From positions 1 through 64,000 of the forward strand of contig JAJRWB010000021.1 of NCBI GenBank assembly GCA_024276995.1: a stretch of 64,000 bases of DNA, given 5' to 3'. Of this stretch, positions 23,403 to 45,667 are shown one piece after another. The stretch is from Candidatus Eiseniibacteriota bacterium. Its GTDB lineage: Bacteria > Orphanbacterota > Orphanbacteria > Orphanbacterales > Orphanbacteraceae. Under the pieces are notes generated by a model. That model did no database searches. It was given only the letters and a program-made list of their open reading frames with translations, and was not told where the DNA came from. The position numbers and the translations under genes are program-made. How positions within the stretch are numbered: the stretch's first letter is position 1; every line of letters starts with the position of its first letter.

Positions 23403-23517
23403 ACGGTCCGCTTCAGGGCGAGAAAAGGCTCATGAAGAGACATTCGTCGCCGATAGAAAATGTTAGTGGCACTATCGTTTTCCAATAAACTTGAAACGCC
23501 CGAAGACGGAGAAATCG

Positions 23518-24510
23518 ATGAATCTTACGGCAACCCAAGGGCTTGACCTCGATAGCTTCAGGGACGAAGGCACGGAGAAGAAGGAATCGGAAACCTCCTT
23601 CGCGACGGCCGAGCGCGGGGCGCTCGACCGTGTGGTGGACAGGGAGAGAACGGCGAGGAAGATCATGGCCGATCTCGACGATCTTCCCTCGCTCCCCAAC
23701 GTGATCAGCGAAGTGATGCGCATGGCGAACGACCCGGCGACGAATGCCTCCGATTTCGACACCATCGTGAGAAACGATCAGGCTCTCGCCGCAAAAGTGC
23801 TTCGCCTGGTGAATTCGTCGTTCTTCGCCCTTCCGAATCCGGTGAACAATATCTCGCAGGCGATCGTGATTCTCGGTTTCCGGACGCTCAAGAGCGTCGT
23901 CCTGGCGGCAAGCACGAGCCGCCTCCTCGACGGACCGCTCTCGATCTACGGTCTCGAGCCGGGGGGACTCTGGAAACACTCGATCTGCGCCGCATCGGCG
24001 GCCCGGCTGATCGCCCGGAAGGCAGGTTTTTCACCGGAGGAAGAAGAGGAACTCTTCGTCGCCGGCCTCCTCCACGACGTAGGCAAGATCATCCTCATCC
24101 GGCATATTTCCGGCATGGAAACGATCTTCCGAGACGCGCTGGTTCATTCGGGCGGCGACCCCGTCCCGGCCGAAGAAGAGCTGTTCGGCATCTCCCACCC
24201 GGAGGTTGGCCGGCTGATGGCATCGAGGTGGAATCTCTCGCCCGAGCTGGGAGGGCTGATCGGCGGCCACCACGAGCGTTCCAATTCCATGGACGATCGG
24301 CATCTCGCGGTCGTCCGGATGGCCGACACGTGCTGCAACCTCATCGGTATCGGTAGAACCGGAAGACCGGCCGAGGCGTTCGACATGACGGCGGCATTCT
24401 CCGAGGTCGCCGCCCCTCTCGACCTGGTGGACGCGGAGGCGGAGATCCTGGCGGATCTCGATGAGGTGCTCGCCGATCTCGGCGAAATCATCCATTCCGT
24501 GGCAAGCTGA
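23518..24510 (+). CDS. HDOD-domain signalling protein
   Basis: 330-residue cytoplasmic protein. After a charged N-terminal 45 residues comes an HDOD domain (LPSLPNVISEVMRMANDP ... VLRLVNSSFFALP) continuing into a region that keeps an HD signature, LLHDVGK (His186, Asp187). HDOD proteins are usually non-catalytic adaptors in cyclic-di-GMP, chemotaxis or stress signalling; the retained HD pair leaves phosphohydrolase activity possible. GGAG lies 7 bases before the ATG. The next gene starts 8 bases after the stop, so the two form a signalling operon. Confidence 0.85.
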   Translation: MNLTATQGLDLDSFRDEGTEKKESETSFATAERGALDRVVDRERTARKIMADLDDLPSLPNVISEVMRMANDPATNASDFDTIVRNDQALAAKVLRLVNSSFFALPNPVNNISQAIVILGFRTLKSVVLAASTSRLLDGPLSIYGLEPGGLWKHSICAASAARLIARKAGFSPEEEEELFVAGLLHDVGKIILIRHISGMETIFRDALVHSGGDPVPAEEELFGISHPEVGRLMASRWNLSPELGGLIGGHHERSNSMDDRHLAVVRMADTCCNLIGIGRTGRPAEAFDMTAAFSEVAAPLDLVDAEAEILADLDEVLADLGEIIHSVAS

Positions 24511-24518
24511 GAGCAGGC

Positions 24519-26231
24519 GTGGCTTACCCATCGAAAGCCGGGGAAGGAGGCGTCGCGATCCTCGCGGCGAACCGTGAGGATTCTCTTTCCTCGTCACTCA
24601 GCGTGAAGGAGCTTCTGGAGAATCTCTCCTCGTCCCTCGAAGAGGGCGCGGACCGAGGATACACGATCCTCTTTCACCAGCCGGAAGGAGGCGGTTTCTC
24701 GGTGTTCGCCTCCCACGGCACGGAATGCGGGCGGATCATCGACCCGGAAGCCGCAGGCGCACTACGCCTCTTCTACCGATCCGCGGAGAAGGACGATCTT
24801 CTCCGGGATGCGCCCCCTCTGTGGAAGGGATCCCCTCCGATCATTGCCGCGTTCCCCCTCGTCTTCCGCGGGAGGAAGTATGGTCTCTTTCTCCTCCACG
24901 GCGCGTCGGGAACGGATCTTCCTGTCTGGCGCCGCCGCGTGGCGGTTCTTTCCGCCGAACTGGTGAAGACGCAGATGCTCGATGCGGCGGACAACGAATG
25001 CGCCGCGATCCGGATGAAGCTCGACGCCCTCAACGAAGCGGGGAAGCTAGTCGGTTTCGTCGACCTCGACACCCTCCTTCCACGGTTGATGGAGCTTTCG
25101 CTCCGCATCATGAACGCCCAGGTGGGCGCGATCGTTCTCGCCGAAGAGAACGGCTTTCACGGGGGGGTGGAGTGGGGGCTCACGGAAGAGATCCTGGCGA
25201 ACCTTCGCACACAGGGAGGGGGTTCCTTCATCGCGGCCGCCATGGCGAAGGGGGAACCGATTCTGATTCCTCATGCCGCTTCATCCGATCAGGTAGACAC
25301 GTCGGGGTCGGACGTGTGCGTCACGTCGCTTCTCACGGTGCCGCTGACGTTTCAAGACAAGACGCTCGGTCTCATCGTGATCGCCAACGGGAATGCCGGC
25401 GGCCTCGACCGTTCCCAGTCGGAAGTGCTCTCTACGATCGCGAACATTTCCGCTGCGGCGGTGGACAACGCGATTCTCTACAAGAATTCTCTGAAACATG
25501 AACGGATTTCGGCGGAAATACAGCTGGCGAGCACGATTCAGAAATCGCTCCTTCCCGAAACGCCCCCCGTTATGGAGGGTGTCGATATCGACGGTTGGAG
25601 TATGGCGTGCACGGAAACCGGCGGAGATTACTACGACTATTTCCCGATGGACGATGGAAAGATCGGTATTGTCATCGGCGACGCCACCGGACACGGCATG
25701 GGTGCGGCGCTGATGATGTTCATCGTTCGCTCGACGCTGTATGCGCTGTTGATGCAAAGCAGCGATCTGACCCATGTCGTCTCCACCATGAATGACAGGG
25801 TCGAGCGCGATACCCAGGACGACCGGTTCATGACGTTCTTCTTCGGCATTCTCGACAGGAAGAGCGGACGGATTTCCTACACGAGCGCAGGCCACGACCC
25901 TCCCGCGCTCTTCCGCCCCGGTACGGGCGACTTCATCGAGTTGAAGAGCACCGGCATACCGCTCGGTATCATGGCCGGCTCCGTGTTCACCGAGGAAAGT
26001 GCCGAGCTGCGACCGGGAGACTGCCTCGTGTTCGGCACCGACGGGATCTGGGAAGCGCGCAACCCGGCGGGTGAGCGGTACGGCTGTCGGCGGCTTCGCG
26101 ACCTGATAGCGCGCCACCACAGGGAAGACGCCCGTGAAATCAGCGCGGTCGTGCGTGACGATATCCTCCGGTTCCGCGGTGCGGGAAGCCAACTCGACGA
26201 TATCACCGCCGTGTTCGTCAAGGTCGTCTGA
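24519..26231 (+). CDS. GAF-SpoIIE (PP2C-type) serine phosphatase
   Basis: 570 residues: an N-terminal region of unknown fold (about 1-160), a GAF sensor domain (about 170-320) and a SpoIIE/RsbU-type PPM phosphatase domain (about 345-570). Metal-binding motifs are ETGGDYYDYF (368-375), GDATGHGMGAA (387 on), FGTDGIWEARN and QLDDITAVFVKV. Family knowledge: such enzymes dephosphorylate anti-anti-sigma (STAS) proteins in partner-switching pathways. No STAS or anti-sigma kinase gene is adjacent. The short gap after the HDOD gene implies joint control. The start is GTG with a purine-rich ribosome-binding site. Confidence 0.88.
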   Translation: MAYPSKAGEGGVAILAANREDSLSSSLSVKELLENLSSSLEEGADRGYTILFHQPEGGGFSVFASHGTECGRIIDPEAAGALRLFYRSAEKDDLLRDAPPLWKGSPPIIAAFPLVFRGRKYGLFLLHGASGTDLPVWRRRVAVLSAELVKTQMLDAADNECAAIRMKLDALNEAGKLVGFVDLDTLLPRLMELSLRIMNAQVGAIVLAEENGFHGGVEWGLTEEILANLRTQGGGSFIAAAMAKGEPILIPHAASSDQVDTSGSDVCVTSLLTVPLTFQDKTLGLIVIANGNAGGLDRSQSEVLSTIANISAAAVDNAILYKNSLKHERISAEIQLASTIQKSLLPETPPVMEGVDIDGWSMACTETGGDYYDYFPMDDGKIGIVIGDATGHGMGAALMMFIVRSTLYALLMQSSDLTHVVSTMNDRVERDTQDDRFMTFFFGILDRKSGRISYTSAGHDPPALFRPGTGDFIELKSTGIPLGIMAGSVFTEESAELRPGDCLVFGTDGIWEARNPAGERYGCRRLRDLIARHHREDAREISAVVRDDILRFRGAGSQLDDITAVFVKVV

Positions 26232-32433: not shown

Positions 32434-33813
32434 CTACACCGGGACGGCCACGTGGGACTCCTCGAGCACGGCGCGCACCTTTTCCACCACCTCGCCGATC
32501 TCAGGAGACTTGTACACCACGGCGTCCGCTCCGGCTGCAAGGGCTCTTTCCCGGGTTTCCCCGTCCTCATCGGCGGTGAAGAGGATCAGCTTGATCGATT
32601 CGCACCCCTCGGTGGCGCGGACCGCTTCGCAGATCTCGATTCCGGAAAGCACGGGCATCATGTAGTCCACCACCGCCGCCGCCGGCTTTTCTCGAAGAAT
32701 CATCTCGAGCCCGTCACGTCCGTTCGAGGCGGCGTGCGGGGAGAAGCCGTGCTTCTGGAAGTAACGCGTATAGAGTCTTCGGATCACCGGATTGTCGTCC
32801 ACGATCACAAGAGCGGGATGCTCGTCTCTTCCGGTGTCCATGTCGTCCACACCGCCCTCCACTTCGCCGAACACGAGAAGTCTGTCGCCGGGCTCGAGGA
32901 TCGTATCGCGGGCGGGAAGGATCGTGTCGCTTCCTCCCCGGCGCAGTCCGGCGATATTCCGTTTCAGAATAAGGGATGCCCTCTCGAGGGTCGCTCCCAC
33001 CGCCGGCGATCCGGCCGGGATATCGATCCACGCCGGAGGAGAGGCGTCACCCGACGGCGCAGCGAAAACCGGATCGATCAGCCCGAGGGCGGCGAGCGTA
33101 TTGTCGGCGATCTTGCGTCCCGCAGCGGAGAAGGGGGCGACGACCTCGTCGGCGCCCGCCTGGAGGATCTTGCGCACCGAGGAATCATCCTCCGCGCGGG
33201 TGGTGATGTGAAGAGTGGGGTTCAATTCTCTTGCCGAGAGCACGACTAAGAGGTTCCCCGGGTCGGTCGGCAGAAGGCTCATCAACGCGCCCGCCCGCTT
33301 GATCCCCGCCTCGAGAAGGGTCGTCTCCCCGGCCGCGTCGCCTTCCACGCAGAGGATTCCCTCGTTCTTGAATTGGTCGGCGAGGGACGGGTCGATTTCG
33401 ACCACCACGAAGTCGGCGTTTCGGGAACGGAATTCCGCCACCGCGGCGGCGCCCACCCGTCCGTAACCGCAAACGATCGTATGACCCCTCAGGCGATCGA
33501 TGGTTCGCTTCATCTTCCTGGCCTCCAGTTCGTCTTTCGCCATGTTCTCGTATATCGCCTCGGTGAATGCACGCCCCGCGACGGCGAGGGACGCGAACCC
33601 GAGGAGAATGATCATCGATGTGAGTGCCCGCCCGGTTTCCGAAAGGGGTCGAACTTCTCCGAATCCGACGGTGGTCACCGTGATCACCGTCATGTAGAGC
33701 GCCTCGTTCAGCGTGTAATTCTCGGCCACCACGTAACCGATGGTTCCAAAGGCGATGGTGAACGTCACCATGACGATCGCCAGGAGGAGCTGTCTTCGGC
33801 TCGAGAGCGCCAT
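32434..33813 (-). CDS. K+ channel fused to RCK and response-regulator receiver domains
   Basis: 459 residues in three parts. Residues 1-85 are a two-helix potassium channel pore with selectivity filter TVGFGE (48-53). Residues about 110-320 are an RCK (TrkA-N plus TrkA-C) module with the Rossmann motif CGYGRVG (115-121) and acidic Glu139. Residues about 333-455 are a complete receiver domain: Asp339/Asp340, phospho-acceptor Asp383 in VVDYMMPVLSG, Thr413 and Lys435. Two-helix channels with RCK domains (MthK type) are common, but I know of no characterised one gated through a receiver. Inference: a histidine kinase phosphorylates the tail to set K+ flux. No kinase gene is adjacent. It appears to be the last gene of a minus-strand operon, 31 bases after its neighbour. 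Confidence 0.88.
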   Translation of the reverse strand: MALSSRRQLLLAIVMVTFTIAFGTIGYVVAENYTLNEALYMTVITVTTVGFGEVRPLSETGRALTSMIILLGFASLAVAGRAFTEAIYENMAKDELEARKMKRTIDRLRGHTIVCGYGRVGAAAVAEFRSRNADFVVVEIDPSLADQFKNEGILCVEGDAAGETTLLEAGIKRAGALMSLLPTDPGNLLVVLSARELNPTLHITTRAEDDSSVRKILQAGADEVVAPFSAAGRKIADNTLAALGLIDPVFAAPSGDASPPAWIDIPAGSPAVGATLERASLILKRNIAGLRRGGSDTILPARDTILEPGDRLLVFGEVEGGVDDMDTGRDEHPALVIVDDNPVIRRLYTRYFQKHGFSPHAASNGRDGLEMILREKPAAAVVDYMMPVLSGIEICEAVRATEGCESIKLILFTADEDGETRERALAAGADAVVYKSPEIGEVVEKVRAVLEESHVAVPV

Positions 33814-33844
33814 CCGGATATCCTTCCCTTCCTATGAAGGGCTG

Positions 33845-34201
33845 CTAGTTATGAGGCGGGTCGGGAAAACCGGTGAGTGGATCGCCCGTGATACCGCCGT
33901 TCCCGTTGTCGCCGTTCCCTCCGTCGCCCCCCCCGCCGCCGATCGCCGCGACGAGAAGAAGCACGCCGAGAGCGCCGCCTCCGATCATCGCCCACTTCCG
34001 TTTCCACCACGGGAGAGCGCCGGCCGGCGCGGTGCCGGCGAGCGAATCGATGCGGGCGGTGTCGGCCGGCGGAACGATTTCGGTCACGGCGGTGTCGACG
34101 GGGGCGATCGTCGATTCACCCGCGGTGACGGCGCCCGCGGCGAACAGGATCGCAACGGCAACGAGCGTCGCCGGAAGAAATCTCGCTATTCCTGGTTTCA
34201 T
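33845..34201 (-). CDS. Small single-pass membrane protein with Gly-rich tail
   Basis: 118 residues: signal peptide (1-27), a Pro/Ala/Thr-rich linker, then WWKRKWAMIGGGALGVLLL (basic residues followed by a membrane helix) and a Gly/Asn/Asp-rich end. The pattern resembles small anchor proteins encoded beside large secreted proteins. AGGAG precedes the ATG. It lies 16 bases after the fibre-like gene, consistent with one operon. Function unknown. Confidence 0.65.
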   Translation of the reverse strand: MKPGIARFLPATLVAVAILFAAGAVTAGESTIAPVDTAVTEIVPPADTARIDSLAGTAPAGALPWWKRKWAMIGGGALGVLLLVAAIGGGGGDGGNGDNGNGGITGDPLTGFPDPPHN

Positions 34202-34217: not shown

Positions 34218-36761
34218 TTATTGAAGCGTAAGAAGTACCTTGATGACTCCGGTGCCCGACGGCAATTCGCCGAGCGCCTTGCTGAGAACGGTGCCGACGG
34301 CCGGATCGTCGTCCCGCATGGCGTGTCCGGGGGTGTCCGACGTCACGAGAAGGTCGCCGATCCGAACGGGTCCGTTCTCGGCGGAAACCTTGCACGGTAC
34401 GATGCCGACCACGGCGAGAGGGACTTCGTCGAATTTCGAGGCCATATCCTCGATGCGGAAGACCTGCTCGTCTTCGACACCCTTCCCGTCGTATTCGGCG
34501 GACCGCGCTTCTCCGTACGGATTATCCCATTCCCGCTCGGAACCGAGGAATCCGGGCTTGGTGCTGTAGATCCCGGCTACAAGGGTGGAGCGGCTCGACG
34601 ACGATTTCTTAGTCGCTCTCGGATTGTCCGTGTCGATCACGAGGACGTCTCCCGCCTCGACGGTGGAAGCCCCGGGTGCGATGCGAATCATCTCGGCGAA
34701 ATCGGCGCCGCCGCCGCTGAAGGTGCCATCGGCGGTCACGTCGCCGTCGCCGAATACCCGGAAGACGATATTGTTTCCACGGGTCGCCTCGATAATCTGG
34801 CAATCGTCGCTCGAACCGGAGGTCACGGTAAGCTGGACGAGATCCAAATTCGCCGATAAGTCCGAGGAGTCGTTCACGCTGAGCCTCTCGTTGGGATTGT
34901 ATGTGCCGATACCAAAGTCGCCGTCACTTTCGATCGTCACAAAGGTATTGTCCGAGATCCCGGTGGAGCCGATCTTGAACCGGTCGGCCTGGCTGTCGTC
35001 GACGCCCATAGTGAACTTGCGATTGCCGTTCAGCGAGAAAGCGATCACGGGATCCCCGTCGCCTGAATTCGTGTTGTTCACCACAATGCCGTCATCATCC
35101 GTATCGGTTTGAACAACCAGTTTCTCCCCGGGGGCGCTCGAGCCGATACCGACATTCCCGGACGATCCGTCGAGTGTGAAGAGTGAATCGTTCACGCTCT
35201 CCAGACCGATCCTGAACCGGTCGGAATCGGAGTCGTCGACACCCATGACATATTCATTGCTGCCGCTTAGCTGAAAGCGGATCACCGGGTCGCCGCCGCC
35301 GGCGGTGTTGTTTATGTCGATGCCGTCTTCCGATTCGTCGCTCGTGATATCGATCTTCCTGTCGGGGGAATCCTCTTTTACACCGAAGTTGCCGTCCGGG
35401 TCGAGCGTGATGAGAGGATCGGTGATCGACGAGAGTCCGGACGTTCCGATTCGGAAGACATCTCCTTCGCCGTCATCCACGCCGATAATGAACTGGTTGG
35501 CGCCGCTGAGCTGAAAAGCGATCAACGGATCGCCGTCCGCGCCCGTGTTGTCGATGACGATACCGTCCATGTATTCCGAAGTCTCGATATGAAGTTTATA
35601 GAACGGAAATGTTCCGATGCCTACGTTGCCTGATTCCCGGTAGATGTCGCTGCCGCCGATGGTCCAGTCGCTGTCGGGCTGGGCCGGGTGCGTATGATCT
35701 CCGGCGGCCACCTCGTTCGCCCCGGTGCCCACCGGGAGACGCGACACGTTGATCGTTCCGGTGGTGATGTCGCTTCCGTCATGGTTGTGGGTGGCGGCGG
35801 CGAAGTCGACGGCGTCCATTCCGTCGAGCTGATCGGCGTTCAGGTTCGCCACCTTCGTCGTCGAGTTCACCGTGAGCGGCGGCGTCCCGTCCGGCTCCAC
35901 GGAAACGAGCTGGCCCGTCGCGCGGATCGAGCCGGCCACGTCGAGCTTCTTGCCGGGTGCGTCGATGCCGATCCCGATGTTGCCCGGGACACCGGCGTGC
36001 ATATCGTTTCCGGTCACCTCCCAGTCCGAATCGGAGGAATCGCCCGAGAGGAACGAGGAGATCCGGATCGTGTCGTCCGATGTCGTGACCTGGATCTGGT
36101 CCCCCGCCACGATCGTCACGCGATCGTACATGCCGTTGAGCGATCGCACCACCGTGTGATCCCTGATCTTCGGCGCCGAGACGGCGCTGTCTGCAAGCTG
36201 GGCCGGTCCGACGGAGGTGTCGGCGATGGAAAGCGTCACCTCGCCGCTCGTTCCGCCGCCCGCGAGCCCGGTGCCCGCGGTGACGCCGGTGATGTCGCCG
36301 CCGCCTCCCGGGGTCGTCCACTCGAGACCGTTTCCGTTGAAGACGATCGTCTGCCCGGCGGCGGCGCCCGCCGTGTCGATCTTCGAGAGCGTCACCGCGT
36401 TGTCGGCGATGCCCAGGGCGTACGGTACGGAGGAGAGAGCCCTTTTCGGGCCGAGTGCCGACCCGTCCACTTCGATACCGAGATAAAGTGTTTCATCGAA
36501 TTCGACGCTGTCCACTTCGAGCCGTGTTTCGTAGTAACCGCCGGCCACGTCGACATTCGATGTTTGTGACCAGACGGCGGCTTGCGTCGTGTCTTCGTAG
36601 ATTCGAAACGTGATCGCATACGAACCGGTGAGGGGAAGACCGTCGTCGTCGGTCAATACCCCCTGGACCTCCATCGTGCCGGGAACATCGGCTGTTGCGC
36701 CGGACGGAATCGTTCCGGCCAGAAGAATCACACCGGTGAAAAAGTGTTTCACAAGATTCAT
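34218..36761 (-). CDS. Large secreted fibre-like protein
   Basis: 847 residues with signal peptide (about 1-25). The N-terminal domain resembles those of secreted proteins starting GVLTDDDGLPLTGSY. The middle has phage-tail-fibre-like phrases (GNIGIGIDAPGKKLDV, SGNVGIGTFPFYKLHI) and a Gly-rich stretch, then three tandem repeats of about 75 residues. The C terminus (DFAEMIRIAPGASTVEAGDV ... VAGIYSTKPGFLG) is a domain common on surface fibres. AAGGAG precedes the chosen ATG by 7 bases. The partner gene upstream ends 48 bases before. It likely forms a surface filament or adhesin; there is no FlgD-like tail. Confidence 0.75.
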   Translation of the reverse strand: MNLVKHFFTGVILLAGTIPSGATADVPGTMEVQGVLTDDDGLPLTGSYAITFRIYEDTTQAAVWSQTSNVDVAGGYYETRLEVDSVEFDETLYLGIEVDGSALGPKRALSSVPYALGIADNAVTLSKIDTAGAAAGQTIVFNGNGLEWTTPGGGGDITGVTAGTGLAGGGTSGEVTLSIADTSVGPAQLADSAVSAPKIRDHTVVRSLNGMYDRVTIVAGDQIQVTTSDDTIRISSFLSGDSSDSDWEVTGNDMHAGVPGNIGIGIDAPGKKLDVAGSIRATGQLVSVEPDGTPPLTVNSTTKVANLNADQLDGMDAVDFAAATHNHDGSDITTGTINVSRLPVGTGANEVAAGDHTHPAQPDSDWTIGGSDIYRESGNVGIGTFPFYKLHIETSEYMDGIVIDNTGADGDPLIAFQLSGANQFIIGVDDGEGDVFRIGTSGLSSITDPLITLDPDGNFGVKEDSPDRKIDITSDESEDGIDINNTAGGGDPVIRFQLSGSNEYVMGVDDSDSDRFRIGLESVNDSLFTLDGSSGNVGIGSSAPGEKLVVQTDTDDDGIVVNNTNSGDGDPVIAFSLNGNRKFTMGVDDSQADRFKIGSTGISDNTFVTIESDGDFGIGTYNPNERLSVNDSSDLSANLDLVQLTVTSGSSDDCQIIEATRGNNIVFRVFGDGDVTADGTFSGGGADFAEMIRIAPGASTVEAGDVLVIDTDNPRATKKSSSSRSTLVAGIYSTKPGFLGSEREWDNPYGEARSAEYDGKGVEDEQVFRIEDMASKFDEVPLAVVGIVPCKVSAENGPVRIGDLLVTSDTPGHAMRDDDPAVGTVLSKALGELPSGTGVIKVLLTLQ
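34866..35575 (-). repeat. Three tandem 75-codon repeats within the fibre gene
   Basis: Each unit contains DGI-x-NNT ... DP-x-IAF-x-L-x-G, then a near-invariant GVDDSxxDRFxIG and an F/VGIG-x4-P closing phrase. The units diverge in sequence but keep length, so the array could expand or contract by recombination. Boundaries are approximate. Confidence 0.65.
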
Positions 36762-36809
36762 AACGAAACTCCTTGCGCCGCTCGTCACCATGCCGACCGG
36801 CTTCAGCGA

Positions 36810-39038
36810 TCAGCGAAGACGGACCATGCGCGCCGTTTGCACGTTCGCGCCGGCTTCCAGACGGAGGAAGTAGACGCCCGGACCGGTCGGTCGCCCTCTG
36901 TTATCCCGTCCGTCCCATGTTGCGATATGGCCGCCCGCCGATTCGTTCCCCCGGACGAGTGATCGGACGAGACGTCCGTTCACGCCGTATACCGCAAGGT
37001 TCGTGGTGCCGCCGGCGGGGAGGGAATAGCGAATCGAAAAGGTGCTCTTCGACGGGTTCGGGTAGGGCGTCCGCAAGCGGAATACCACCGGCGGCGCCGT
37101 GGGGGCATAATGATTCGCCCGGAGGAGTTCCACCGGACCGGCCACGATCTTCACGCGCCTTTCCCTCTCTCCCGGCGCGGGCACGATGCGAACGGTTTCT
37201 TCCCCGTCGATTCGCCGGATCTCGCCGGTCGTGTCGTCTGCGATGTACACTTCGATGCCGGCGGGGATCTCCCCGGTGGAGGCGGCGGTCAGCTCCGTCT
37301 CATCTTCGGTGCGGAACCGGAGAACCACGTTCCACGTTTCGATTTCGTCGATCACCTCCCGGAAGTCGGCGCTCAGCTCGTCGGGGAAAGAGATCCCGTC
37401 GCCCGGCTCGATGGCGATCATCGCCGGACGGCCGCCGGGTAAGGGCGGGTTGAGGTGATCCCGCGAATCGAAACGATCCGATGATCCGCGCAAGGCGCCG
37501 ATCACGATCGTCCCCTCCTCGCCGGGAGACGAGAGGCGAATCGAGATCGCCCACCCGTCCTCGCCGTTTTCGGGGATTCTGTCCGCCAGCGCGGTCTTCG
37601 ATGCGCCGTTCGATTCGACGGCGGGCACGAGAAGGTCGAGCGAAGCGCCCGAGAGATTGTTCACGAAATAGCCGTGCCACGGCTCGAGCGTGGCGGCGAT
37701 CCGGTACGATCCGGCGGTGTCGTCGAAGACGTACTCGTACGCGGCGTTTTCGATCAGCCCGCTGTCCGCCGCTTCCTCGACGGTAAGCGTCGATCCGCCG
37801 CCGATCGACACGCGGCAATCGCCCCACGCCACGTCGTAGGCGAAAGGTTGTCCCATCTGGCTCCACCAGACGCTCCCCGCTCCCCCTTCGAGGGGAATCG
37901 CGTAATACGTCTCGCCGTCGTCCGGGTAGACCGACAGACCCGATACGTCGTACGTCTTGTCGGACGCCGTCACGAGCCAGAATCCCTCGCCGGCATCGAA
38001 CGGCCTGCCCGTGTCGGCGGGGTACTCGATCACCGAATCCACAGCCTGCGACCATCCGCCGAGGCGCCAGCTCTCCACCGAGAACGCGCCGAGGTCGTCG
38101 CCGAGAACGTCGGCGACCGTCGCCCCCGTGGTGTTCAGCGGTGCGGAGATCATCGTGTGATGACGCGACTCCACGGTGGGGGACACCGCGTCGGTGACCT
38201 CCACGGGAATCCGGACGGGCGTTTCGGCGGGCACCGCCGGAGTGGTCGTCTTCTTCTCTCCCGCAAACGCCTCCACGTAGTATTCCACTCCACGGATTCC
38301 GACGAGCGATCCGGGAATCGCCGCCGACAATGTCACCGAGTCGTCGAGGGACATCGCCGCGCTTCGCCATGCGGCGTCCCCCTCGCCTCCCAGGCGGTAA
38401 TAGACCATGCCCGAATCGAGGTTGAAGTTGCCGACGGCGCTTATCGTTGCCTGTGTACCGGCGGGCACGACCGACGGAGAGGCGGCCACGCTGAGCGCCA
38501 GGATGCCGCTTGTTCCGTGGAGCGGCATCTTCCAGACCCCCTGCGCCGGGTCATTGGTGGTCACCTCGATGGTATCGAAGACATCGCCCTCTCCCGACGG
38601 GGTGAACGTGATCGGTACGAGGAACGTGTCGCCGGAAGGAACGAGTTCATCCGCCAGTGGCTTGGCGAGGTGGAAGGGAGAAGGGTCGCCGGCAAAGGAA
38701 AAGGCGCCGAGGAGGAGCGTCGTTCCACCCGGATTCGAGACGGAAACGGTTTCGGTCACCGCGAAGGCGCCGGCATTGCCGAAATCGACCGATTCCGCGT
38801 CCACCGCCAGGACCGGTCTCGCGAAGATCGGGAAGAATCCCTCGGAGTTCGTGGCGGTCGCCGATTTCATCGTTCCCGAACCGAGTCCGCCCACGACGGT
38901 CATCGAATGGAAGGAACCCCCCGAGAGTCGTCCTCCGCCGCATGTCACCGAGCTCCAGCGGGATTCGTACGATAAAACCGTCCCCGCGGCGACGGCGAGT
39001 ACGGAGGCCACGACGATCATTCTCGCGAATGTTTTCAT
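36810..39038 (-). CDS. Large secreted protein with FlgD-like tail
   Basis: 742 residues. Signal peptide (about 1-23), then a choice-of-anchor / ASH-like domain (SVDFGNAGAFAVTETVSVSN ... HGTSG), further beta domains, a region beginning HHTMISAPLNTTGATV and a region with WGDCRVSIGGGSTLTVEEA. The C-terminal FlgD-like sorting domain starts TPYPNPSKSTFSIRYSL and ends MVRLR. No catalytic motif is recognisable; a structural or adhesive role is likely. It is probably the first gene of a four-gene operon that ends with the K+ channel-receiver fusion. Confidence 0.75.
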   Translation of the reverse strand: MKTFARMIVVASVLAVAAGTVLSYESRWSSVTCGGGRLSGGSFHSMTVVGGLGSGTMKSATATNSEGFFPIFARPVLAVDAESVDFGNAGAFAVTETVSVSNPGGTTLLLGAFSFAGDPSPFHLAKPLADELVPSGDTFLVPITFTPSGEGDVFDTIEVTTNDPAQGVWKMPLHGTSGILALSVAASPSVVPAGTQATISAVGNFNLDSGMVYYRLGGEGDAAWRSAAMSLDDSVTLSAAIPGSLVGIRGVEYYVEAFAGEKKTTTPAVPAETPVRIPVEVTDAVSPTVESRHHTMISAPLNTTGATVADVLGDDLGAFSVESWRLGGWSQAVDSVIEYPADTGRPFDAGEGFWLVTASDKTYDVSGLSVYPDDGETYYAIPLEGGAGSVWWSQMGQPFAYDVAWGDCRVSIGGGSTLTVEEAADSGLIENAAYEYVFDDTAGSYRIAATLEPWHGYFVNNLSGASLDLLVPAVESNGASKTALADRIPENGEDGWAISIRLSSPGEEGTIVIGALRGSSDRFDSRDHLNPPLPGGRPAMIAIEPGDGISFPDELSADFREVIDEIETWNVVLRFRTEDETELTAASTGEIPAGIEVYIADDTTGEIRRIDGEETVRIVPAPGERERRVKIVAGPVELLRANHYAPTAPPVVFRLRTPYPNPSKSTFSIRYSLPAGGTTNLAVYGVNGRLVRSLVRGNESAGGHIATWDGRDNRGRPTGPGVYFLRLEAGANVQTARMVRLR

Positions 39039-43840: not shown

Positions 43841-43894
43841 GTAAGCCCTCCCCCCCGGTGAAGTCCCCGTTCCACACAACAGGAGATGTGCCTC

Positions 43895-45667
43895 ATGATG
43901 CCGTTTTCGTTCCTCACGCTCCGGAGAGCGGCCTCGCTTTCGGCTCTCCTTTCCCTCGCGTTCGCCACCACCCTTTTCGCGGCCGCCTTTCCGATCTCCA
44001 TGGACGGCGCCTTCGACGACTGGACGGCGGTGCCTGTCGCCTTCACCGACGCTTCCGGCGACGGGGGGGGCTCGGGAATCGATTTCGGACGGCTCTGGGC
44101 CGCGAACGACGGGCGGGGCCTTTTCCTTCGAATCGAACTCGGCCCGTCGCTCGTGATGCAGGAATCGAACAGCCTGACCCTCTACATCGACACCGACAAC
44201 AATAGCTCCACGGGAACGGCGGTGGCCGGCATGGGCGCCGATCTCGTCTGGGAGTTCGGCAACCGGGGCGGAACGTACCAGGGCTCGTCGATCTTCTGGG
44301 ACGACATCGGTCTGGTCACCACGCCGCCCCATGCGGGGAGCGACTTCGAAATCTCCCTCCTCCGCGCCGCGACACCCGGGGGGAACACCCTCTTCCCGTC
44401 GAACACGATCCGCATCGCCCTTCGGGACAACTCGTCCGGCGGCGACTGGATTCCGAGCAGCTCCACGTCGGTGTCGTACACATTCGACGATTCGAATCCA
44501 TACGATCCGCCGGCGATCGCCCTCGATAAGGCGAACGCCGATTATCTCCGCGTGATGACACACAATGTGAAGAACGACGGCCTGTGGAGCCGGTCGGCGG
44601 AGCACGGGAGACTGGTGCAGGCGATCAACCCCGATATCATCGCCTACCAGGAGATTTACAACAACGATGGGCCGACCACTCTTTCGTGGGTTCAGTCGTA
44701 CCTTCCGGGCACGTGGTACCTTTCGTGGAGCGGAGAGCTGAAGATCATCTCCCGCTACCCGATTCTACAAGAGTGGTCCACCGGTGCCGGCAGGGCGTGG
44801 GCGGCGCTTATCGATCTGCCCACCGCGTTCACCCATGACCTGTTGCTGATCAATCTCCATCTGAAGTGCTGCTCCACGGGCGACTCGCAGCGACAGCAGC
44901 AGATCGATGACGTAATGTCGTTCATCCGTGACGCGGAGAGCGCGGGTGGATCGATCACTCTTCCCGCCTACACGCCGATCATGATCGTGGGCGACACGAA
45001 CATGTACGGCGACGCGCAGCAGGTGACCACCCTTCTCACGGGCGACATCCTGGACAACGGCACCTACGGTCCCGACTTCAACCCGGACTGGGATGGAACC
45101 GCCCTCGACGCTCTCGTGTCGAGACAGCTTTCCGTCAGGCAGACCTATTCCTATTACAACCCGGCCAGCTCGTACGGTCCGTCGCACATCGACAGGATCA
45201 CCGTCACCGGAAGTGCGGTCACCGTGGACAAGAGCTTCATGCTTCACACGCAGAATCTCGATCCAGCGGTGCTCGCCGCGGCCGGCCTGAACGCCGGCGA
45301 TTCCCAGGCGGCTTCGGATCACGCGCCCCACGTCGTCGACCTGCAGAGCGATAACACGAGCACCGGCGTGGCCGCGCCGGCGCCGGGCGCACTCCGCTTC
45401 GCACTCGTGAACCGGCCGAATCCGTTCAACCCGCAGACATCGATCTCCTTCGCCCTGTCGTCGGCGGGAGAGGTTCGCCTCGCCGTGTTCGACGTCCAGG
45501 GCAGGAAGGTGACGACCCTCGTGGACGGCCGTCGTTCCGCCGGTGAATACTCGACCGCGTGGGACGGCACCGACGACATGGGAGCGGCGGTGGCGTCGGG
45601 CGTCTACTTCGCCCGTCTCGAGAAGGACGGGGACTCCTCGATCCGCCGAATGATCCTGATTCGCTAA
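43895..45667 (+). CDS. Secreted endonuclease/exonuclease/phosphatase-family protein with FlgD-like tail
   Basis: 590 residues. Signal peptide, then an N-terminal beta domain (FPISMDGAFDDWTAVPV ... ALRDNSSGGDWIPSS, a CBM9-like or family-unknown domain). The EEP catalytic domain follows, with VMTHNVKNDG, AYQEIYN, LLINLHLKCC, IVGDTNMYGD, SHIDRI and SDHAPH, i.e. the Asn, Glu, Asp/Asn and Asp/His residues of a Mg-dependent phosphodiesterase. The C terminus is FlgD-like (NRPNPFNPQTSISFAL ... MILIR). Likely an extracellular nuclease or phosphodiesterase. AGGAG stands 9 bases before the ATG; the ATG at 43886 would overlap that site. Confidence 0.85.
   Translation: MMPFSFLTLRRAASLSALLSLAFATTLFAAAFPISMDGAFDDWTAVPVAFTDASGDGGGSGIDFGRLWAANDGRGLFLRIELGPSLVMQESNSLTLYIDTDNNSSTGTAVAGMGADLVWEFGNRGGTYQGSSIFWDDIGLVTTPPHAGSDFEISLLRAATPGGNTLFPSNTIRIALRDNSSGGDWIPSSSTSVSYTFDDSNPYDPPAIALDKANADYLRVMTHNVKNDGLWSRSAEHGRLVQAINPDIIAYQEIYNNDGPTTLSWVQSYLPGTWYLSWSGELKIISRYPILQEWSTGAGRAWAALIDLPTAFTHDLLLINLHLKCCSTGDSQRQQQIDDVMSFIRDAESAGGSITLPAYTPIMIVGDTNMYGDAQQVTTLLTGDILDNGTYGPDFNPDWDGTALDALVSRQLSVRQTYSYYNPASSYGPSHIDRITVTGSAVTVDKSFMLHTQNLDPAVLAAAGLNAGDSQAASDHAPHVVDLQSDNTSTGVAAPAPGALRFALVNRPNPFNPQTSISFALSSAGEVRLAVFDVQGRKVTTLVDGRRSAGEYSTAWDGTDDMGAAVASGVYFARLEKDGDSSIRRMILIR

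Follow-up and report, generated by a model that had tools for sequence, protein, structure and literature searches.

The window, a DNA stretch of 64,000 nucleotides, carries on its minus strand a single gene of 459 codons that joins a two-helix pore, a full RCK region and a C-terminal receiver domain, as the first-pass annotation had described (Table 1). It forms one open frame from the ATG at 33813 to the stop at 32434. The domain order by Pfam was Ion_trans_2 (residues 15-87, 2.8e-14), TrkA_N (residues 113-227, 6.5e-30), TrkA_C (residues 262-319, 1.4e-10) and Response_reg (residues 336-446, 2.7e-21), with all four matches exceeding the curated cut-offs. The RCK is complete, with both lobes C-terminal to the pore. 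The receiver is complete as well, and the site residues given earlier, D339, D340, D383 (the phospho-acceptor), T413 and K435, were correctly numbered. No NCBIfam model covers the protein; the best match, PRK10537, reached 84.6 bits against a cut-off of 425 bits.

Table 1. Positions of the fusion gene, its parts and the adjoining genes in the window
Feature	Position	Strand	Basis
Pore-RCK-REC fusion gene, 459 aa	32434..33813	-	single ORF; four Pfam domains above cut-off; AlphaFold pLDDT 90.7
Main-start Shine-Dalgarno-like AAGGA, 7 nt 5' of the fusion-gene ATG	33821..33825	-	read from sequence
Two-TM pore domain, residues 8-95	33529..33792	-	Ion_trans_2 and helices in the AlphaFold model
Selectivity filter TVGFGE, residues 48-53 (T48 to E53)	33655..33672	-	sequence; kept in 4/4 fusions
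RCK N-lobe, residues 110-242, Rossmann, GYGRVG, E139/D141	33088..33486	-	TrkA_N; motif almost unchanged in 44 sequences
RCK C-lobe, residues 260-319; P260 and W262 peculiar to the fusions	32857..33036	-	TrkA_C and comparison with relatives
Flexible non-conserved linker, residues 319-333	32815..32859	-	low pLDDT; 11% mean pairwise identity
Receiver domain, residues 334-447	32473..32814	-	Response_reg 2.7e-21; five site residues invariant in 4/4 homologues
Internal Shine-Dalgarno-like GGAGG, 8 nt before the Met101 codon	33522..33526	-	duplex energy -9.3 kcal/mol
Met101 ATG, from which a soluble RCK-REC subunit may start	33511..33513	-	relatives and MthK alignment
118-aa small protein, secreted or anchored, probably on the same transcript	33845..34201	-	no Pfam match
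857-aa secreted protein, probable same transcript	34218..36791	-	sequence, Pfam scan
742-aa secreted protein with a FlgD_ig sorting-type domain at its C-terminus, probably on the same transcript	36810..39038	-	Pfam

The AlphaFold model used was built from a 52-row alignment and had a mean pLDDT of 90.7 and a pTM of 0.60, while a four-row run was poorer (pLDDT 64.5). The model showed two TM helices and a pore helix (helices at residues 5-31, 35-47 and 59-107), the RCK and the receiver. Residues 319-329 were disordered (pLDDT < 50) which, together with the pTM of 0.60, leaves the position of the receiver relative to the ring undefined. Since the linker is flexible and non-conserved, a rigid allosteric path has no predicted REC-RCK interface to support it, which counts against the gating mechanism proposed below.

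The fusion gene is the last of four same-strand genes separated by gaps of 18, 16 and 31 nt. This close spacing makes plausible the earlier proposal that it closes an operon with genes for two big secreted proteins; the 118-aa gene lies between. The neighbourhood is not conserved, being absent around the three homologous fusions described below. With neighbourhoods that differ in all four genomes, the operon was rejected as part of the channel system; it appears to be local and is not considered part of the mechanism. Two secreted proteins of the window (36810-39038 and 43886-45667) have C-terminal FlgD_ig/Por_Secre_tail-like sorting domains. At 23491-26231, two adjacent same-strand signalling genes encode an HDOD protein and then a GAF-SpoIIE phosphatase.

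Reality and distribution of the fusion

Third-codon GC was 0.70-0.85 throughout the frame, the RCK-REC junction included, and because it stays high across codons 281-380 the composition gives no hint of a merger made by a frameshift. Whole-genome searches showed three more proteins that match the window protein over its full length at about 40-47% identity, in the genomes here called G142 (~43%), G356 (~42%) and G430 (~47%). All three have the same domain order, an uninterrupted frame and a linker of similar length. The channel-receiver fusion in the window is thus confirmed as real and not an assembly artefact. That two neighbouring genes were joined by an assembly or indel error, the outcome that the first-pass annotation had set against its own reading, is contradicted by these three independent co-linear homologues and by the uninterrupted codon bias. 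The draft state of the genome (81 contigs) and the lack of a fused receiver in six other genomes of the window phylum would fit such an error, the probability of which is now practically nil.

The searches covered about 1,400 distinct genomes and gave no fusions other than these four proteins. They span three bacterial phyla (G356 and G430 in one, G142 in another, the window genome in the third), so that the search for the architecture suggested in the first-pass annotation returned co-linear homologues from two further phyla. The fusion is rare and present in at least three bacterial phyla. The window phylum was sampled by seven genomes including the window genome; none of the other six had a channel-receiver fusion, and a receiver-less channel relative was found in four of them and also in the window genome itself. 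Larger phylum scans of 195, 399 and 386 genomes showed no fusions among the best 4-8 candidates scored per genome, and absence from these large phyla, resting on those candidates, is stated with lower confidence; the best-4 setting did recover the known positives G142 and G356. With the full protein as query, a scan of genome contigs gave matches to the receiver alone (REC-HD proteins and others) and no fusion. Among plasmids, 1,054 records matched parts of the protein with none covering 80%, and viral contigs showed no match to the fusion protein.

A maximum-likelihood tree of 50 pore-RCK sequences, 46 of them without a receiver, placed the channel halves of the four fusions in one clade with a support of 100/100. 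Their receiver parts also grouped together in a small receiver tree (support 89/82). The simplest reading of both trees is a single origin, with one fusion event probably followed by transfer or loss, and the patchy distribution would favour horizontal transfer.

Comparison with known channels and response regulators

The closest solved structures by fold and sequence were GsuK and MthK. MthK, the Ca2+-gated K+ channel of Methanothermobacter (PDB 1lnq, 6oly), was the best sequence match among solved structures (1e-24, residues 13-319). It shares with the window protein a 2-TM pore, one RCK per subunit and an internal Met just after M2. Unlike the window protein it has no receiver, its filter is TVGYGD instead of TVGFGE, and the GxGxxG motif, intact in the window protein, is replaced. 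Where MthK has its Ca2+ ligands D184, E210 and E212, the aligned residues of the window protein are L180, R206 and E208. MthK-type Ca2+ gating via this site was rejected, as the ligands are not conserved. The nucleotide-binding GYGRVG motif with acidic E139 and D141 at the end of beta-2 is present; G116, G118 and G121 were found in 43-44 of 44 sequences, and almost all members of the clade retain GxGxxG. E. coli Kch and other Ion_trans_2-TrkA_N channels (NCBIfam PRK10537) likewise combine a pore with an RCK but lack a receiver. TM segments are more numerous in Kch than in the 2-TM channel of the window type.

GsuK, the multi-ligand gated channel of Geobacter sulfurreducens (PDB 4gx0-4gx5), was the top fold match. 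It has the same TVGFG filter and a cytosolic C-terminal extension after the first RCK, which is a second RCK in GsuK and a receiver in the window protein. GsuK is opened by ADP and NAD+ through its RCK and is weakly K+-selective (PNa/PK about 0.2), the Phe filter going with weak selectivity (PMC3510474). By analogy, weak K+ selectivity of the window channel is possible. The term potassium channel used in the first-pass annotation holds for the pore and RCK, which are of the K+-channel kind, but since Phe replaces Tyr in the filter, as in the weakly selective GsuK, it is better read as K+-permeable (predicted).

Response regulators with unusual output domains include receivers attached to enzymes (PMC5847659). 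Like these, the window protein joins a complete phosphorylatable receiver to an effector that does not bind DNA; unlike them, it has a membrane ion channel as effector and carries the receiver at its C-terminus. No receiver-channel fusion was found in the open-access literature searched, which agrees with the earlier remark that no characterised example was known; the response-regulator surveys of Galperin (2006, 2010) were outside the reach of this search, and the pore-RCK-REC architecture may already stand in domain databases. Overall, the sequence places the window protein in the already known MthK/GsuK kind of channel, with a receiver added.

Conservation of the fusion and a possible internal start

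The five receiver site residues are invariant in all four fusions, and the filter is kept in all four as T-[VI]-G-[FY]-G-E. Mean pairwise identity among the fusions was 56% for the receiver, 49% for RCK-N, 41% for the pore, 41% for RCK-C and 11% for the linker; the receiver is therefore the best-conserved domain. Three RCK residues, P185, P260 and W262, are common to the four fusions and missing from 40 receiver-less relatives, 31 of which have Glu at position 262. The P260 and W262 changes lie inside the RCK C-lobe and suggest that the receiver may have co-adapted with the channel side. A functional receiver is supported because the fusion and the intact receiver were kept across three phyla with an apparent single origin.

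Met101 lies within one residue of Met107 in the alignment with MthK, and a Met directly after M2 is found in 37 of 50 family members. Anti-Shine-Dalgarno pairing upstream of the Met101-equivalents, with a mean of -6.95 kcal/mol, was much stronger than the mean of -3.40 kcal/mol for the remaining internal ATGs in these genes (Mann-Whitney p 4e-9, an optimistic value as related sequences are not independent). Arg codons at -5 to -2 were AGA or AGG in 50 of 63 cases compared to 25-27 expected from each gene's own usage, a bias reached in none of 5,000 simulations, which is again optimistic owing to the relatedness of the sequences. Across the family, codon choice has apparently been under selection to keep an internal Shine-Dalgarno site ahead of the RCK, which goes beyond the conserved Met noted in the literature. 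Within the four fusions this site is strong in the window gene (-9.3 kcal/mol) and in G142 (-9.5 kcal/mol) and not strong in G430 (-3.6 kcal/mol) and G356 (0.1 kcal/mol).

In MthK, Met107 is the start of a separate, soluble RCK subunit (PMC2920069), and most prokaryotic channels with one RCK need a soluble RCK subunit (PMC3510474). For E. coli Kch, removal of the putative internal start left expression and function unchanged, according to the account of Kuo et al. (2003) in PMC2920069. The Met101 site suggests that extra soluble RCK-REC subunits may be made, and a ring with up to eight receivers would result if this start is used in the window gene.

Kinase context and possible roles of the receiver

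The histidine kinase that the first-pass annotation proposed to look for was not found near the gene: the window contig had no HATPase_c match and no cognate kinase, while 43 HATPase_c matches above cut-off are located elsewhere in the window genome. In G142, the fusion gene is the second of six in a same-strand cluster (L058:1269-14169) encoding PAS-HK-REC, channel-REC, H-NOX (HNOB 5.5e-46), PAS-HK-REC-REC-Hpt, REC-HK and PAS-HK. H-NOX proteins are partners of histidine kinases. This cluster, with four kinase genes of which three have their own REC domains, is the sole direct contextual link of the fusion to kinases, in one of four genomes. The neighbourhood stretches read around the G356 and G430 fusions contained no kinase; the neighbours were fatty-acid oxidation genes in G356, and polyketide/fatty-acid-type and enoyl-CoA hydratase-like genes, named by eye, in G430. 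A 1302-aa protein near the G356 fusion (L059:14039-17947) has a receiver-like region at its N-terminus together with a very long acidic stretch of repeats.

In the mechanism that we propose, drawn from knowledge of these families, the protein would form a tetrameric, RCK-gated and K+-permeable channel of the MthK/GsuK type whose gating ring carries the receiver domains. In the window organism, Asp383 would be phosphorylated in trans by a histidine kinase or a phosphorelay, and this would alter receiver-receiver or receiver-RCK contacts on the rim and so shift the balance of the ring between closed and open. Phosphorylation would act jointly with an adenine nucleotide or NAD in the RCK N-lobe on the ring, which may be a mixture of full-length and soluble RCK-REC subunits. 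Phosphorylation, nucleotide binding, the mixed ring and the direction of gating are all presumed here by analogy. That Asp383 phosphorylation tunes the channel is somewhat probable. As for the earlier claim that ion flux would answer directly to a kinase, the fusion, the intact receiver and its conservation stand, but direct gating is what we infer from them, and kinases adjoin the fusion in G142 only.

The receiver could instead be a phosphorylated sensor or feedback element and not a gate, with the ring serving as a scaffold, competitor or phosphate sink of a kinase pathway, whereby the channel or K+ state would feed back on two-component signalling or localise the kinase at the membrane. 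Conservation of the phosphorylation residues and of the first receiver helix would be expected here too, as would the place of the G142 fusion among kinases, most of them with receivers of their own, and the flexible linker would suit a tethered sink. However, the fusion-specific P260 and W262 point to co-adaptation on the channel side, and we regard this role as unlikely while giving it more weight than the two that follow. Were the receiver to control assembly or abundance, its dimerisation, driven by phosphorylation, would decide the entry of soluble RCK-REC into the ring and the pore would be gated by ligands only. The strong internal sites of the window and G142 genes, the family-wide codon selection and the MthK precedent argue for such control, but the G356 and G430 genes have no good internal site and Kch, in the account given above, did not need its own, which makes this explanation quite improbable. 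Pseudo-receivers serve elsewhere as structural or interaction modules independent of phosphorylation; such a use is very doubtful for a domain that is the best conserved of the protein and whose phosphorylation residues are invariant in four homologues from three phyla.

The presence of a single-origin fusion in three phyla suggests that, beyond gene expression, some bacteria may gate a channel directly by phosphate from a sensor kinase. The known targets of two-component systems are transcription, second messengers, enzymes and the flagellar motor. Direct gating of the channel, if true, would turn a sensed signal into altered membrane potential or K+ flux with no need for new transcription, and would provide a direct genetic handle on bacterial electrical signalling as well as a natural phospho-switchable channel. 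The widest form of this proposal, in which the channel is itself a response regulator of a single-origin, patchy family, a phosphorelay gates cation flux directly through up to eight receivers per RCK ring, and one lineage places H-NOX haem-NO/O2 sensing upstream, is tentative and has slightly less than an even chance of holding as a whole. The four homologues are concrete proteins for testing, and G142 adds candidate kinases and an H-NOX sensor.

Finally, the filter varied widely across the family. The second Gly of TVG[FY]G was replaced by R, S, E, M, K, N, Q, A or T in 25 of the 50 sequences, and the Glu next after the filter was kept in 46 of the 50 despite these replacements. Receiver-less relatives with an altered filter were found within L020-L091 (for example L022, L026, L051 and L080). 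They indicate a large TVGFxE group of RCK channels, the predicted ion selectivity of which should differ from that of K+ channels.
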